A stretch of DNA of 64,000 nucleotides from Methanogenium sp. S4BF (lineage in GTDB: Archaea > Halobacteriota > Methanomicrobia > Methanomicrobiales > Methanomicrobiaceae), in the NCBI RefSeq assembly GCF_029633965.1, contig NZ_CP091277.1:1237940-1301939 (forward strand), written 5' to 3'. The notes beneath the pieces are model-generated. The model made no database searches, was not told the DNA's origin, and saw only the letters and a list, made by a program, of their open reading frames with translations. Numbering within the stretch: the first letter of the stretch is position 1; each line of letters begins with the position of its first letter. Shown piece by piece: positions 38,116 to 48,293 of this stretch. The position numbers were made by a program, and so were the translations under genes.

Positions 38116-38691
38116 ATGAGAAAAACCGAACATAAAACCGAACCAAAAACCAAACAAAAAACCGAACCGGGAGCCGAACAGAAGGCTGAACGAAACACCA
38201 TACCGAAACCCGAACAGCATACCACCCGCACCCCCGGCCAGCCAGAGACCATCGTCCGGGGCGGGAGAGATGGTGAGGAAACGAACCGGCAGGTTATACC
38301 GAACAGAAAGGTGCAGAGATGCAGACCCGCAGTGCCGGCAGAAGAGGGCAGCCCCACCGCACCACCCTGCGCCAACAGTGAAATGTCCGGAACTGCCGGT
38401 GAACATCCGGCGGCTGAGGGCATGCAATCAGCGGTGCATGAACAAACCGCCATCCAGGCCGGGCCGGTCCCGCTCTATCTCATCCCGCAGACCATCTCCT
38501 CGGGGATTCATGCCCACGGCGGGGAGATCTCGGAGATTACCGTCCGGCGGACGGGCCAGCATGTCTACGCGATTACGCTGACCACGGTGCCGAAGCGGAA
38601 GCGGGCGCGGAAGCAGACACCCCGGCAGGGAACGAGGCAGGGAGCAGTGCGGGGAGCAAAGCAGGCCGGAGGTGACGCCGATGCAGACTGA
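38116..38691 (+). CDS. Charged protein of unknown function, first gene of the primase operon
   Basis: The 191-residue product is very hydrophilic. Residues 1-40 are Lys/Glu/Thr-rich with imperfect KTEPK repeats, and the end is Arg-rich (KRKRARKQTPRQGTRQG). The middle, PLYLIPQTISSGIHAHGGEI followed by YAITLTTVPKR, looks folded. I do not recognise the family. The next gene starts inside its end, so it belongs to the primase operon of a mobile element. The start is uncertain: ATG 38116 has no clear ribosome site. Confidence 0.55.
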   Translation: MRKTEHKTEPKTKQKTEPGAEQKAERNTIPKPEQHTTRTPGQPETIVRGGRDGEETNRQVIPNRKVQRCRPAVPAEEGSPTAPPCANSEMSGTAGEHPAAEGMQSAVHEQTAIQAGPVPLYLIPQTISSGIHAHGGEISEITVRRTGQHVYAITLTTVPKRKRARKQTPRQGTRQGAVRGAKQAGGDADAD

Positions 38692-39034
38692 GCCCGGCAC
38701 CCTCTCCCCCGGGAACGGCGGGGGGCTCTGCCTCGCCCTTGCGGAGGAAACCTACCGGCTCGCCAGAGATGACATCCACACCCTGCTCTTCTACGGGCAG
38801 AGCGTGCCCCTCACCCGGACGGAAAGGCAGGTCCACCCGGACGGCACCATTGTGGCCGCCGCGGTCATCGACGGGCATATCGCCGTCCATGTATCCGGGC
38901 GGGCCGTCCTCATCACCACACGGGCCGGGCTGTACTCCATCCCGTTTGTGAGTTTCCAGCGGGTCGCCCGCGGTGAAGCCGCCTCGGCCCCCCTCTTCCC
39001 AGCAATGCCGGCCTATGCAGGGGGCTGCCGATGA
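38681..39034 (+). CDS. Small protein of unknown function in the primase operon
   Basis: This protein has 117 residues. ATG 38681 is chosen because GGAGGTGA lies 4 bases before it. It overlaps the upstream gene by 11 bp, and its TGA overlaps the ATG of the primase gene (ATGA). The protein (LCLALAEETYRLARDDIHTL, TIVAAAVIDGHIAVHVSGRA) looks like a small alpha/beta fold. No function is recognised. Confidence 0.7.
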   Translation: MQTEPGTLSPGNGGGLCLALAEETYRLARDDIHTLLFYGQSVPLTRTERQVHPDGTIVAAAVIDGHIAVHVSGRAVLITTRAGLYSIPFVSFQRVARGEAASAPLFPAMPAYAGGCR

Positions 39035-41928
39035 ATGCCGGGCAGACGCAGGAGATACGGGAGGCCCTCTCCCTCCTCTTTTCCGAAGGTGGTGTCGTCG
39101 AACTCCGTGCGTTAGGCGACGGGGGGGTCCACAGCGGCTACTTCAGCGACTTCGATGCCCTTGCCGAGCGGGCGGCGGCGCTGGACACATTCCCCGGCGT
39201 GCACGGCGTGTATGTCACCTTAAACGAGGTGAACCCGGCCCTCCTTTCCCGCCGGGCGAACCGGGTGAAGCAGCGGCTCTCCCGGACAGACGCCACCACC
39301 GCTGACGCCGACATCTGCCGCCGCCGGTGGCTCCCCATCGACTTCGACCCGGTGCGGCCGAGCGGGGTCTCGGCGACCGATGCGGAGCATGCCGCTGCCC
39401 TCGAACGGGCCGAAACGGTGGCCGCCTGGCTCACACAGCGGGGGTTCCCGGCACCGGTCCTCGCCGACTCCGGGAACGGGGCCCACCTCCTCTACGCAAT
39501 CGACCTCCCGAACGACGGGGAGGCCGCCCGGCTGGTGAAGGAATGCCTCACCGTCCTTGATGCCCTCTTCTCAGACGGTACCGTCCACTGCGACACGGCA
39601 AACTTCAACGCAGGCCGCATCTGGAAATGCTACGGCACGACGGCCAGAAAGGGCGACCACACCCCGGAACGCCCCCACCGGCAGGCCCGCATCCTCTCTG
39701 CCCCGGATGAGCCCGCCATCGTGCCGGTCGGCCTGCTCAACGACCTCGCCAGGTCCATTCCCCGCTCCGCCCCGGAAGCGGAACAGGGCAGGCGCCGGGG
39801 CTCGTTTGACCTCGGCCGGTGGCTCGGCAGACACGGCATCGCCGTCAGGACAGAGCGGCCCTGGCAGGGAGGGACGCTCTATTCCCTTGCAGCATGCCCG
39901 TTCTCCACCGCCCACACCGACGGGGCGTTTGCCGTCCAGTTCGCAAACGGGGCGGTCTTTGCCGGGTGCCACCACGACTCCTGCGGCGGCGGGACGCAGC
40001 GGTGGCAGGAGCTCCGGGCGATGTATGAGCCGGAGCGGGCCGCGGGGAAGAGAAACGGCACGGAGTCGTCAGACGGTTCGGAGGAACCGGCGGTGGACCC
40101 CTCCCCGGTCCCATCACCCTCTTTGGCAGTACCGGATATGCAGGAATACCGGAGACAGGCCCTTGAAATCCTCACCACCGGCGATCCGCTCAGCTTCCTC
40201 CTCGACGTCTTCCACCGGGACCATGTCGGTGACCGGACCGTCGCGGAGTGCCTCATCATGTCGGTCGCCTCACAGTCCGTCGAGAACACCTCCGGGCTGC
40301 ACGTCGCCATCTCCGGCACCTCCGGCAAGGGCAAGACCCATGCCTGCAACGCGATGGTCCGGCTCCTGCCGGAAGAATACCGGCTGAAGGGCACGGTCTC
40401 CGATAAGGCACTGTACTATTATGATGACCTCCGGCCGGGGACGGTGCTCCTCTTCGATGACGTCACCCTCTCGGATGATATGCAGGAACTCCTGAAGTCG
40501 GCCACGGCGAACTTCCGGGAGCCCATCCAGCACCGGACCCTGACCCGTGAACGCCAGCTGAAGCTCTGCACCATCCCGGAGCGCTGTGTCTGGTGGCTCG
40601 CGAAGGTGGAGAGCATCGGCGACGATCAGGTGATGAACCGGATGCTCACCGTCTGGATTGACGACTCGGCCGCCCAGGACCGGGCCGTGCTTGAGCACCT
40701 GAAGAAGTCGGAAACAGGCGATATGCTCTCTTTATCGGATGACCCGGATGTGCCTGTCTGCCGGGCGATGTGGGAGATACTCAAAGGTGCGGTCCGGAAG
40801 GTGAAGATCCCGTTTGCAAAGCGCATCTGTTTCTCTGTCACGCACAACCGGCGCAACCCGGCGATGCTCTTTGACCTGATCAAGTGCCACGCCCTGCTGC
40901 ACCATCTCCAGCGGGAGACCGATGCGGACGGGACACTCATCGCCACCGGTGATGACTTTGCCTACGCCCGAACACTCTTTTCCGCCATCAACGGTGGTGG
41001 AGGCGGCCAGGAGACGAAACTGACGAAGAACGAAGCAGCGGCGCTGGAGTCGATTGCCCGGATGGACCTGCAGGTCTTCACTATCCGGCAGCTCCAGGAC
41101 ATTCTCGGACTTTCGTATTACCAGACCTACCGGCTTTTGCACGGCTATTCGGTGAACCGAACGACATACCAGGGTGTTCTCGACAAGTGCCCCGCAATCA
41201 GTCTCATCGATGCCACCGTTGCAGAGGAATTCTGCGGGGTTGAGGGGCGGCAGCGGAAACACTATTTCTCCTTTGACCTGGTGCAATACCGGAAATGGTC
41301 TGCACAAGCCGATGTATGGCTTGAGGAGGATGGAAATGATGACCGGAACGGCAATGGCCCTGATGGCAGCGGCAAAACGGGCGATACCGGAGATGGTTGC
41401 ACCTTTGCAGCAGCTTTGCATACAAAAACGAAAGATATTGCAAAGCGAAACAAAGGACGATTCGTTCATCATATTCCAAAAAAGGACAATGTAATAGAGA
41501 GATGTACAGAGAGTACACGTACTTTGCATACTTTGCAGGGATCATACAGCAATCCTGATTCGGCATCTGGTGGGAATGATGGTGTCTGTGATCCCTGCAG
41601 CATTGCAAAGAGATCCGGGAACCCGCCAATACGTGGTTCAAATGAGGATTCGGGTCACAATTCGCAGGATTATCTTTGCAAACCGGATTGCAAAGCTATG
41701 CAAAGTCACGCACCCATGCAAAAAACAGCGGAACAAGGAGCCACGCTTCCCCTCCCCGGCATCCTCGACCACCGGGACTTCCACCATTCATCCGTCTCCC
41801 TCGGCCACTGCACGCTCTGCGGTGACGGGGCGGCGGTCTATCACTCAGACGAACTGCTGGCGAGTGTCTGCGAAAGGTGCTATGCCCGGCTCGTGCGGGA
41901 GTGGAACCTGGGGGAAGGGGTGGGGTGA
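39031..41928 (+). CDS. Primase-polymerase (AEP) fused to a P-loop ATPase/helicase
   Basis: The protein has 965 residues. The N-terminal 250 show archaeo-eukaryotic primase motifs: the metal pair in LPIDFDP (D104, D106), DSGNGAHLLYAI (147-156) and GRIWKCYGTTARKGD (about 195-209). A D5/phage-helicase-like ATPase follows at about 375-640, with Walker A SGTSGKGKTHACNA and Walker B VLLFDDVTLSDD, and then a winged-helix segment (IRQLQDILGLSYYQTYRLLH). A low-complexity linker (about 790-910) comes next, ending in a zinc ribbon, CTLC and CERC. Such fusions replicate plasmids, viruses and integrated elements. The linker DNA is AT-richer and carries nine CTTTGCA copies. No integrase gene is nearby. Confidence 0.85.
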   Translation: MNAGQTQEIREALSLLFSEGGVVELRALGDGGVHSGYFSDFDALAERAAALDTFPGVHGVYVTLNEVNPALLSRRANRVKQRLSRTDATTADADICRRRWLPIDFDPVRPSGVSATDAEHAAALERAETVAAWLTQRGFPAPVLADSGNGAHLLYAIDLPNDGEAARLVKECLTVLDALFSDGTVHCDTANFNAGRIWKCYGTTARKGDHTPERPHRQARILSAPDEPAIVPVGLLNDLARSIPRSAPEAEQGRRRGSFDLGRWLGRHGIAVRTERPWQGGTLYSLAACPFSTAHTDGAFAVQFANGAVFAGCHHDSCGGGTQRWQELRAMYEPERAAGKRNGTESSDGSEEPAVDPSPVPSPSLAVPDMQEYRRQALEILTTGDPLSFLLDVFHRDHVGDRTVAECLIMSVASQSVENTSGLHVAISGTSGKGKTHACNAMVRLLPEEYRLKGTVSDKALYYYDDLRPGTVLLFDDVTLSDDMQELLKSATANFREPIQHRTLTRERQLKLCTIPERCVWWLAKVESIGDDQVMNRMLTVWIDDSAAQDRAVLEHLKKSETGDMLSLSDDPDVPVCRAMWEILKGAVRKVKIPFAKRICFSVTHNRRNPAMLFDLIKCHALLHHLQRETDADGTLIATGDDFAYARTLFSAINGGGGGQETKLTKNEAAALESIARMDLQVFTIRQLQDILGLSYYQTYRLLHGYSVNRTTYQGVLDKCPAISLIDATVAEEFCGVEGRQRKHYFSFDLVQYRKWSAQADVWLEEDGNDDRNGNGPDGSGKTGDTGDGCTFAAALHTKTKDIAKRNKGRFVHHIPKKDNVIERCTESTRTLHTLQGSYSNPDSASGGNDGVCDPCSIAKRSGNPPIRGSNEDSGHNSQDYLCKPDCKAMQSHAPMQKTAEQGATLPLPGILDHRDFHHSSVSLGHCTLCGDGAAVYHSDELLASVCERCYARLVREWNLGEGVG
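41403..41705. repeat. Cluster of nine CTTTGCA iterons inside the primase gene
   Basis: CTTTGCA occurs at 41403, 41414, 41522, 41531 and 41674; its complement TGCAAAG occurs at 41439, 41604, 41689 and 41699 (start positions). The copies fall in different reading frames, so they are not a protein repeat. The surrounding DNA is clearly lower in GC than the rest of the gene. This is the layout of an iteron-type replication origin or binding region. Confidence 0.75.
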
Positions 41929-43155: not shown

Positions 43156-43285
43156 TGCGCTCTCTACTAGCATTGAAGGCAGTCTAACGGTGCACAAAGG
43201 GGAGAGATTTCGGCGCCATTCTGCCTTTACGCGGAATCCTTTGGCCATACGCCGGTTCACCGGCAGTCGGTGTCGCCCTGAAGGG

Positions 43286-43404
43286 GTGACATCTGCGGCG
43301 ACGGGGCGGCGGTGTACCATTCGGAAGTGCAGCTCAAAAGCGTCTGCAAAGCGTGGTGTGCAGGCATGTCCGGGAGTGGAACCGGAGCCAGGGGATGATG
43401 TGAT
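43286..43404 (+). pseudogene. Relic of a second primase C-terminus
   Basis: ICGDGAAVYHSEVQLKSVCK in one frame, then HVREWNRSQG in another, match LCGDGAAVYHSDELLASVCE and LVREWNLGEG at the end of the 39031-41928 primase. At least one frameshift separates the two halves. The rest of that primase gene is not here. Confidence 0.7.
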
Positions 43405-45089: not shown

Positions 45090-46223
45090 TCACCCGACCC
45101 CGCACGCCTCCCGGACCGTTCCGGCATCATACCGCAGGACGATCTGCCGGGTATTGCCGTGATACGGGGGACGAAACATCTCAATCAGCCCCAGGTTCCG
45201 GAACTTTTCGAGGCGTTCAAAGAAGAGCGTGTAGCACATCGGGACCTCTGCCTGCAGCGCCCGGTAGAGTTTGCCGGAGACCATCTCCCCCTCCCCGGTC
45301 TGGTGCAGGACGGCCATCCGGCACAGCATCCGCCGCTCGTCCTCCCGGAGTCCCCGGACGACCTGCTTCAGGTGGGGATGGCCGACCCGCAAAACGGCGG
45401 TGCGTACATCGGCCCCGGTCACCGTTTTGCGCCCGTCGGATTCCGCCAGCCGTACTGCTGCATGCAGCAGGCTGATGCCCACCCGGAGGTCGGTGTCCCG
45501 CATCGTCTCCTGCACGATGGCATCCAGCACCTTTGATGGGAGGACGTCCGGGTACAGCCCGGCCCGGACCCGGTCATGGAGAATGGCACGCACCTCCTCC
45601 TCCCCGTAGGGCGGGAAGATGACCTCATTGGGCCGGAAGACCGAGATCACCGACGGGCTGAGAAACGGGAGAATGGAGATGTCCGGGCTGTTGATTGTGG
45701 CGATGACACCGGTTTTGACGCCCGGATACTCCTCGTGCAGCCGGAGCAGGGAGCGGAGCACCCTCTCGAGGATATGGTCATGGAAGAGGAAGTTGGCATC
45801 ATCGAGGCAGATGAGAAGGACAGCACCCCGTCTGATGAGTTCTTCACACAGGGCCTCAATGAGGGAGGGGACGGAGACGCCGGAGACGGGCGGTTTCTGG
45901 CGGAACACGGCGGCGTAGATCTTCCGGAACACCCGGTATTCGGTCTGCACCGTCTGGCAGTTGACAAAGACCGGTATGATTCCGGGTATGGCCTCTTCGA
46001 TCTCGGTGAAGCACCGTTTCACCGAGGTGGTCTTCCCGGTGCCCGGCGGACCACGCAGGATCATATTGAGGGGGCGGCCGCCGTGGATGGCGGGCCGGAT
46101 GCACTCTGCGATCTGGCGAAGCTGCGTGTCACGAAACCGGAATATCTCCGGCATATGGTCAATATCAAGAACATCCAGGTCCCTGAAGAGCGTTTCATTC
46201 GACATCAAAAAATTATGCCTCAT
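45090..46223 (-). CDS. cdc6: Orc1/Cdc6-type replication initiator
   Basis: The 377-residue protein has the family start (SNETLFRDLDVLDIDHMPEI), Walker A GPPGTGKTTS, Walker B LLICLDDANFLF, sensor 1 ATINSPDI and a C-terminal winged helix (KLYRALQAEVPMCYTLFFERLEKFRNLGLIE). It binds origin repeats and loads the MCM helicase. Given the primase and element debris nearby, it may be the initiator of a mobile replicon rather than the main chromosomal copy. The AT-rich stretch 46224-46370 upstream is the usual place for an origin, but I see no clear ORB element. ATG 46205 is an alternative start. Confidence 0.92.
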   Translation of the reverse strand: MRHNFLMSNETLFRDLDVLDIDHMPEIFRFRDTQLRQIAECIRPAIHGGRPLNMILRGPPGTGKTTSVKRCFTEIEEAIPGIIPVFVNCQTVQTEYRVFRKIYAAVFRQKPPVSGVSVPSLIEALCEELIRRGAVLLICLDDANFLFHDHILERVLRSLLRLHEEYPGVKTGVIATINSPDISILPFLSPSVISVFRPNEVIFPPYGEEEVRAILHDRVRAGLYPDVLPSKVLDAIVQETMRDTDLRVGISLLHAAVRLAESDGRKTVTGADVRTAVLRVGHPHLKQVVRGLREDERRMLCRMAVLHQTGEGEMVSGKLYRALQAEVPMCYTLFFERLEKFRNLGLIEMFRPPYHGNTRQIVLRYDAGTVREACGVG

Positions 46224-47479: not shown

Positions 47480-47789
47480 GGCAGGACATATTCCTTCTGC
47501 TCTTCATATTTATCCCGGATGTGCATTTCCCGGAACCAAAGACCGGATGTTCTTCTCATTTTTCCCAAATGATTTCCCCGGTGCGGCGATGATAATTGTG
47601 CAGTGAACATGACGATTCCGCCGGTGCGCCCGGAACAATTCTGCGCCAGAATTACCCGTTGTTTACTTTCACAACGCCGCATTTGCCCTGCATTGGTTCC
47701 GATGTTAAGGCACGCATATATTACTCAAAGTAATAGTTTAGTATGTCAGTCGCATCCCGGGAACCGGCTGGCCCAGGAGTGTGCAAATC
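47480..47789. other. Intergenic stretch with promoter of the 47790 gene
   Basis: No gene is recognised. The TATA box GCATATATTAC at about 47714-47724 should start transcription near 47745, upstream of ATG 47790. Confidence 0.4.
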
Positions 47790-48293
47790 ATGGCAGACTT
47801 TATCCAGACAACAAACACCAGAAGTGCGGTGCGGGACCTTTCCGTCCCCATCGCCAACATCACCACCTTCGATGCCCTCGTGCAGGACATCATCGACACC
47901 AACCCCTTCGGCTGCACTGCGTATGTCGAACAGGGTGTGACCATCGACCCGGTTGTCCGTTCCAAAGAAGCGTATGACGCGAAGATCGTCTATGAAAACC
48001 TCGAAGCCGATACGGTCGGCGACCTCTCCGTCAGGGTTGCATCCGTCACCGCGTTCGGCACCGCTGCCGCCCACGTGATGGCCGACGGCGACCTTGCCAC
48101 GGCAATCGGCGGGACCCCGTCCCGCAACACGGCAAAGGACACCTTCTCCTGCAGGCTGAAGTGTCATGACCCGAACGGCGAAATCTACTACGTGACCCTC
48201 TCCCGCTCGAAGGTCCGCATCTCATCCTACGCGGATGATGCCATCCGCACCACGGTTGAGGCATGGGCTGACGGGATACCAGAACTTTCCTGA
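47790..48293 (+). CDS. Conserved protein of unknown function (family A)
   Basis: The 167-residue protein starts MADFIQTTNTRSAVRDLSVP and has no signal peptide. It includes NPFGCTAYVEQGVTIDPVVR and KVRISSYADDAIRTTVEAWA. I do not recognise it. Fragments of the same family occur at 49230-49427, 54390-54442 and 54805-54872, so it has been copied within this region. A hairpin with a T-run follows its stop. Confidence 0.8.
   Translation: MADFIQTTNTRSAVRDLSVPIANITTFDALVQDIIDTNPFGCTAYVEQGVTIDPVVRSKEAYDAKIVYENLEADTVGDLSVRVASVTAFGTAAAHVMADGDLATAIGGTPSRNTAKDTFSCRLKCHDPNGEIYYVTLSRSKVRISSYADDAIRTTVEAWADGIPELS

Follow-up and report, generated by a model that had tools for sequence, protein, structure and literature searches.

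An iteron array of conserved geometry and changing word inside a methanogen primase-helicase gene, a predicted replication origin

The replication protein gene and its surroundings

The window analysed here is a stretch of 64,000 nucleotides from Methanogenium sp. S4BF. It includes a gene for a replication protein of 965 amino acids, defined by its open reading frame, an AF2 model and Foldseek comparisons. The domain order given by AlphaFold and Foldseek is an AEP-like primase, an MCM-like AAA+ ATPase, a winged helix, a disordered linker and a zinc ribbon, with Foldseek matches to MCM subunits (E 5e-7) and to the primase RepB' (3h20, E 1.3e-4). The genes and the parts of the protein referred to below are the following.

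38672-39034, plus strand: 120-aa protein just upstream of the primase gene, with relatives in 24 loci
39031-41928, plus strand: replication protein gene, 965 codons
41008-41325, plus strand: winged helix, residues 660-765, predicted reader of the iterons (AF2, 600-768; weak wHTH matches; covariation)
41116-41142, plus strand: recognition-helix codons, residues 696-704 (AF2; covariation of 696)
41152-41160, plus strand: wing-tip codons V708-N709-R710 (covariation of 708/709; AF2)
41335-41757, plus strand: disordered linker hosting the array, residues 769-909
41758-41925, plus strand: C-terminal zinc ribbon with four conserved Cys
45090-46223, minus strand: Orc1/Cdc6-like initiator gene (NCBIfam NF001624, E 6e-120)

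A profile search with the 965-aa protein gave 0 Pfam and 0 NCBIfam matches to primase or helicase families, and the RepA_N domain (PF06970) was absent in the Pfam search. Comparison with PHROG yielded weak matches only, and a sequence-profile search of solved structures returned nothing. By domain order and host group, compared by description, the family is probably arCOG07809 (Mpal_2033), which the available part of the report by Makarova and colleagues presents as a marker of small integrated elements (PMC4158269). Like the element in the window, those elements combine primase, helicase, HTH and Zn finger and are small, integrated and found in methanogens; the same part of that report mentions neither an origin nor iterons and does not contain the term "replication origin" (PMC4158269), whereas the window copy has an iteron array.

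Relatives of the primase gene are present in 66 of 100 related genomes, often in multiple copies, and the S4BF genome has three near full-length copies. The near full-length copies found lie without exception on chromosomes or contigs; among plasmid, virus and phage records, no bona fide one with the whole primase gene turned up, and single-protein scans of viral contigs gave no relatives.

Several neighbours recur. A few relatives of the 120-aa upstream protein are possibly joined to the primase frame, the Orc1/Cdc6-like gene accompanies the primase in 22 loci, and a tyrosine-recombinase-type gene family lies upstream of it in about 17, none being recognised near the window copy. The window's primase gene adjoins a type I-E-like cas locus; copy 2 (L181, genome C1:424000-443000) lies beside Druantia genes (DruC, DruD and DruE1 profiles) and a zeta-toxin-like gene, and copy 3 (L182) beside TIR and kinase genes. 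A 170-aa protein without family match (MADFIQTT..., 47781-48293) is found near the primase in about ten loci, including that of copy 2. Downstream of the primase gene, at about 43237-43359, a short fragment resembles its zinc-ribbon end, and other primase remnants lie elsewhere in the genome.

The array and its geometry

Within the C-terminal third of the protein, conservation reaches its minimum in the linker. The initial annotation had seen here a low-complexity peptide encoded by an AT-rich part of a GC-rich gene, and both descriptions are borne out: the linker is of low complexity and predicted to be disordered (AlphaFold pLDDT < 50 over residues 769-909), and its GC content is 0.47 against 0.64 elsewhere in the gene. 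Its DNA carries the following sites.

41403, 41414, 41522, 41531, 41674 (plus strand) and 41439, 41604, 41689, 41699 (minus strand): exact CTTTGCA (n=9)
41403-41445, both strands: cluster A, TGCAAAG at 41403 and 41414 (minus) and 41439 (plus)
41483-41543: most AT-rich stretch (+120 to +180), candidate unwinding element
41522-41537, minus strand: site B, TGCAAAG at 41522 and 41531
41534-41544: left arm TGCAGGGATCA of the central inverted repeat, between sites B and C
41589-41599: right arm TGATCCCTGCA of the central inverted repeat
41604-41610, plus strand: site C, TGCAAAG (CTTTGCA on the minus strand)
41674-41680, minus strand: site D, TGCAAAG
41689-41723, plus strand: cluster E, TGCAAAG at 41689 and 41699 and a degenerate ATGCAAAA with TG at 41717

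The nine CTTTGCA previously reported on both strands and in different codon frames are thus exact copies and use all six strand/frame classes; near-copies such as that at 41717 are part of the array. Their rarity stands, the earlier chance expectation of 0.04 being slightly low, since 682 copies genome-wide (2.51 Mb) correspond to about 0.08 per 303 bp. Nor is the 7-mer equally dense elsewhere, as a genome scan found only five isolated close pairs outside the array, against three within it. The 682 copies in this genome (G000) compare with 185 of a reversed control, an excess for which the array does not account.

The initial annotation had named absence of the 7-mer from the linkers of close homologues as a ground for refuting its proposal. 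CTTTGCA itself is in fact usually absent from them; the array is conserved. Measured against codon-shuffled controls, the word of homologous linkers differs by lineage (TGCAAAG, GGTGCAAA, TGCTGAAA, TGCTGCCA, GATGAAAA, and further GTTGCAA, TGCTGTAA, TGCTGTCA, AGTGGAA and others), and the signed positions of the sites coincide once the linkers are registered. In copy 3 of the S4BF genome the word is GTGGAA. We built a template of 12 sites, centred on TG and independent of the word, from a few copies in Methanoregula/Methanofollis, and fitted it to 131 Methanomicrobiales homologues. Of these, 118 scored above the 99th percentile, and 95 above the maximum, of 1048 fits to codon shuffles. A motif search by EM, run linker by linker, settled on low-complexity patterns and was abandoned.

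The linkers of these 118 hold about 12 sites in fixed order, orientation and spacing, with a standard deviation of position of 0.4-1.15 bp among 62 good arrays. Median positions are 36, 44, 55 and 66 (minus), 76 (plus), 163 (minus), 240 (plus), 315 (minus) and 325, 336, 346 and 354 (plus). Five site pairs share, to within half a base, a common axis at 195-195.5, which falls near 41559 in the window, and the axis of the B/C pair lies 6 bp off it. Symmetry extends to ten of the 12 sites, where the null mean is 5.4, and 18 of 5000 randomisations did as well.

Some copies depart from this plan. Near-palindromic GTTGCAAA words together with ARG or TRG wings characterise a Methanoculleus group that fits the template poorly, has a regular spacing of its own and supports the dyad only in part. 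The array of copy 2 in the S4BF genome (L112) is degenerate. Two Methanoculleus linkers are expanded to 870 and 1023 nt (L066 and L067) and repeat these sites in a further cluster, suggestive of an in-frame duplication of the array, and a 960-nt linker of Methanogenium marinum (L041) has CATCATC-type repeats and no recognisable array.

A disordered linker of low complexity is where a coding artefact might arise, the words then coming from a peptide repeat or from codon bias. Codon shuffles never match the array: nine copies of any 7-mer occurred in none of 200 shuffles of the window's linker, and the highest 7-mer count over 100 shuffles was three. The spread of the nine copies over six strand/frame classes, with a mean of 5.1 of 6 in the good arrays, also speaks against such an origin of the words. 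Furthermore, four copies of the Methanofollis group (L121, L125, L137 and L144), a single clade in the core tree, have open reading frames with a common end point that precedes most of the array, and keep the sites nonetheless, with template scores of 43-52 against a null maximum of 39.3. These proteins all end in ...RS where the linker begins, and no zinc ribbon was found downstream of the stops. Strand/frame spread, shuffles and stop-truncated copies together led us to reject the peptide-repeat and codon-bias explanations, whose probability we consider negligible. That the linker holds a real and conserved DNA array matched to its initiator is almost certain.

Covariation of the word with the winged helix

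The match to the initiator became apparent when variation of the protein was compared with that of the word. With overall divergence removed, the highest partial correlations with iteron distance over 734 variable columns were those of residues 708 and 709 (0.59 and 0.55), a permutation max-statistic null over the same columns reaching at most 0.40. Both residues track iteron positions -3 to -1 (0.52-0.78, with up to 0.78 at -1). Residue 696 appears to track positions +3 to +5 (0.40-0.53), and 697/698 are weakly correlated with +1. Since the model places 696-704 in the recognition helix and 708-710 at the tip of the wing, the covariation, which is blind to location, singles out both DNA-reading parts of the winged helix.

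The first set of sequences gave a rule, in which an SRG-like wing goes with TGC before TG and an N-type wing with G before TG. Among 63 newly fetched homologues with enough sequence, held out from that set and matched to the template by an unchanged procedure, TGC was found with 25 of 28 SRG-like wings and G at -1 with 12 of 12 N-type wings (Fisher 8e-8 for the association of wing class and word), two cases, with CRG and SHG, having been counted as SRG-like post hoc, after the hold-out was viewed. The wing classes switch repeatedly along a tree built from the primase-helicase core, and seven independent contrasts were about 6.8 concordant and 0 opposite (p 0.016). Between two copies that are 90% identical (L130 and L131), a one-residue shift in the wing goes with a change from TGC to a weak TT at -3 to -1, CAAA being kept. 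The window copy has the wing VNR, and in its iteron the 5' half is unconserved and G is fixed at the +4/+5 end.

The wing lies about 250 bp from the array, wing codons and array together fall within about 600 bp, and in switching pairs identity drops over the wing-array block, so that recombination may carry the two together. Linkage alone would nevertheless be insufficient, because lineages with differences across over half of the protein still keep the match of wing and word and because 708/709 are singled out against columns nearer the array.

The zinc ribbon and the element's Orc1/Cdc6-like protein had both been put forward as possible binders of CTTTGCA, and the recurrence of an Orc1/Cdc6-like gene beside the primase would suit the latter. 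However, for many arrays no Orc1-like gene was found alongside, and by far the strongest signal comes from the wing-tip residues of the primase protein itself. The zinc ribbon does not covary with the iteron words, its partial correlation being negative, and was rejected as the reader. Reading by either of these thus appears very unlikely. The array sites are in all likelihood read by the protein's own winged helix, a binding that is predicted from sequence covariation.

A candidate origin within the initiator gene

Mean GC content at +120 to +180 is 0.19-0.26 under that of the rest of the gene in the 62 good arrays. The central inverted repeat of the window has 11 of 11 pairs; at least eight pairs are found in 30% of 71 homologues against 1.3% of shuffles, related copies not being independent, and the repeat persists across homologues with differing arm sequences. 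As single-stranded DNA the 103-nt central segment folds better than 200 of 200 shuffles (z -4.0). This folding, the pairing kept with different arms and the mutual inversion of many sites would also be compatible with an RNA structure in the primase mRNA, whose inverted-word stems would regulate translation or stability. The lateral clusters, however, are weak folders (z about -1.5), and pairing in RNA would not require any covariation of the word with the residues by which a winged helix reads DNA. We regard a function in the mRNA as highly improbable.

With a probability of roughly 0.8, the array at 41403-41723 would be the replication origin of the mobile element encoding this primase, situated inside the gene of its own initiator. 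An origin within the gene of its primase had been proposed at the outset; the array linked to its initiator and the AT-rich core agree with that proposal, and origin activity is what we infer from them. Copies of the protein would bind the iterons through the winged helix: the wing tip (708-709) would read the 5' half (-3 to -1), while part of the 3' half would be read by the first residues of the recognition helix (696-698). Initiator complexes would be placed symmetrically about the AT-rich core by the two outward-facing clusters, by sites B and C as a pair and by the central inverted repeat. The MCM-like AAA+ part may then open the DNA and the primase part start synthesis, which would plausibly be bidirectional. 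The linker peptide would be a spacer, variable because its DNA holds the function.

Binding by the protein's own winged helix would explain the covariation without proving an origin. The array could instead be a cis site for autoregulation, for incompatibility or handcuffing or for partition, the true origin lying elsewhere in the element: plasmid iterons also take part in copy control (PMC5703833), and the origin of pRN1 is downstream of the gene (PMC4234260). Yet the array lies 2.4 kb past the start codon, away from the promoter. Matches to its own matrix number 21.8 per kb within it (high by construction) and 0.08 per kb in flanks of up to 6 kb, and it resembles an origin in having an AT-rich core, a dyad and a central inverted repeat. 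A different role in cis therefore seems unlikely to us, and the origin remains the preferred reading.

Lambda O recruits the host helicase, and the lambda repeats are four in number and longer; we know of no helicase or primase in O, nor of a dyad of about 350 bp with separated clusters in lambda. N15 and PY54 have their origin inside repA, which resembles the gene in the window as a primase-helicase initiator gene that in N15 and PY54 forms a complete replicon, and differs from it in its bacterial Toprim-type primase. The repA minimal replicon of these two is named in a title cited in PMC10612081.

Origins inside initiator genes are described for pSK41 rep and pT181 (PMC5703833) and for lambda O, where, as in the window, iterons and an AT-rich tract lie in the middle of the gene (PMC7466680). 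The repC gene of repABC likewise holds its origin, the oriV of p42d being inside the repC coding sequence near an A+T-rich region; RepC belongs to another protein family, and the part of that source covered here does not mention a matched code of word and wing (PMC3155836). Parallels to the linker are found in pSK41 and the RepA_N staphylococcal plasmids, which have initiator boxes inside rep that are bound by a winged-helix domain, and in pSK41 the segment encoded by the origin is a deletable linker (PMC5703833), a role that we propose likewise for the linker of the window's primase. RepA_N differs in having neither a primase nor a helicase domain, in its four boxes, in its occurrence in Firmicutes and in its unrelated sequence.

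Among archaeal systems, orf904 of pRN1 is also a replication protein with primase, helicase and winged helix; unlike in the window, the origin there is an essential 100-nt stem-loop that lacks iterons and is located downstream of the gene (PMC4234260). The iterons and the central inverted repeat of the window both lie inside the gene, an arrangement other than that of pRN1, and the likeness of the central repeat to the pRN1 stem-loop is suggestive only. The Methanothermobacter plasmid pMTBMA4 (L179) encodes a distant relative of the helicase and carries four TGGGAAA at 1711-2045, in the 3' half of the gene. This count is within chance, though in the corresponding place.

The initial annotation had called the arrangement undescribed. 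In kind it is not, given pSK41 rep, pT181, lambda O and repABC repC, and for archaea the statement probably holds: a literature search, with most subscription papers outside it, found no description of an origin in an archaeal primase gene or in an arCOG07809-like family. Whether this is the first origin inside an archaeal primase gene, with a dyad array of about 350 bp, two back-to-back MCM-like hexamers, a word set by the wing code and separate control of replication, is in our judgement evenly balanced. If so, the wing code (SRG to TGC, N-type to G) would re-specify initiator and origin within about 600 bp, and co-resident elements would thereby gain separate replication control; an avoidance of shared words by co-resident copies beyond that of unrelated copies was not supported (p 0.13).

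The data provide a predicted origin and a predicted code of initiator specificity for a large, uncharacterised family of mobile elements in methanogens, which often lie beside defence genes and in a host group with few genetic tools. The same or adjacent bases encode a protein and a DNA element, and over 100 natural copies show the two shifting specificity together many times. Such joint changes bear on how replicons escape from incompatibility and could yield compatible replicon modules for methanogen genetics.
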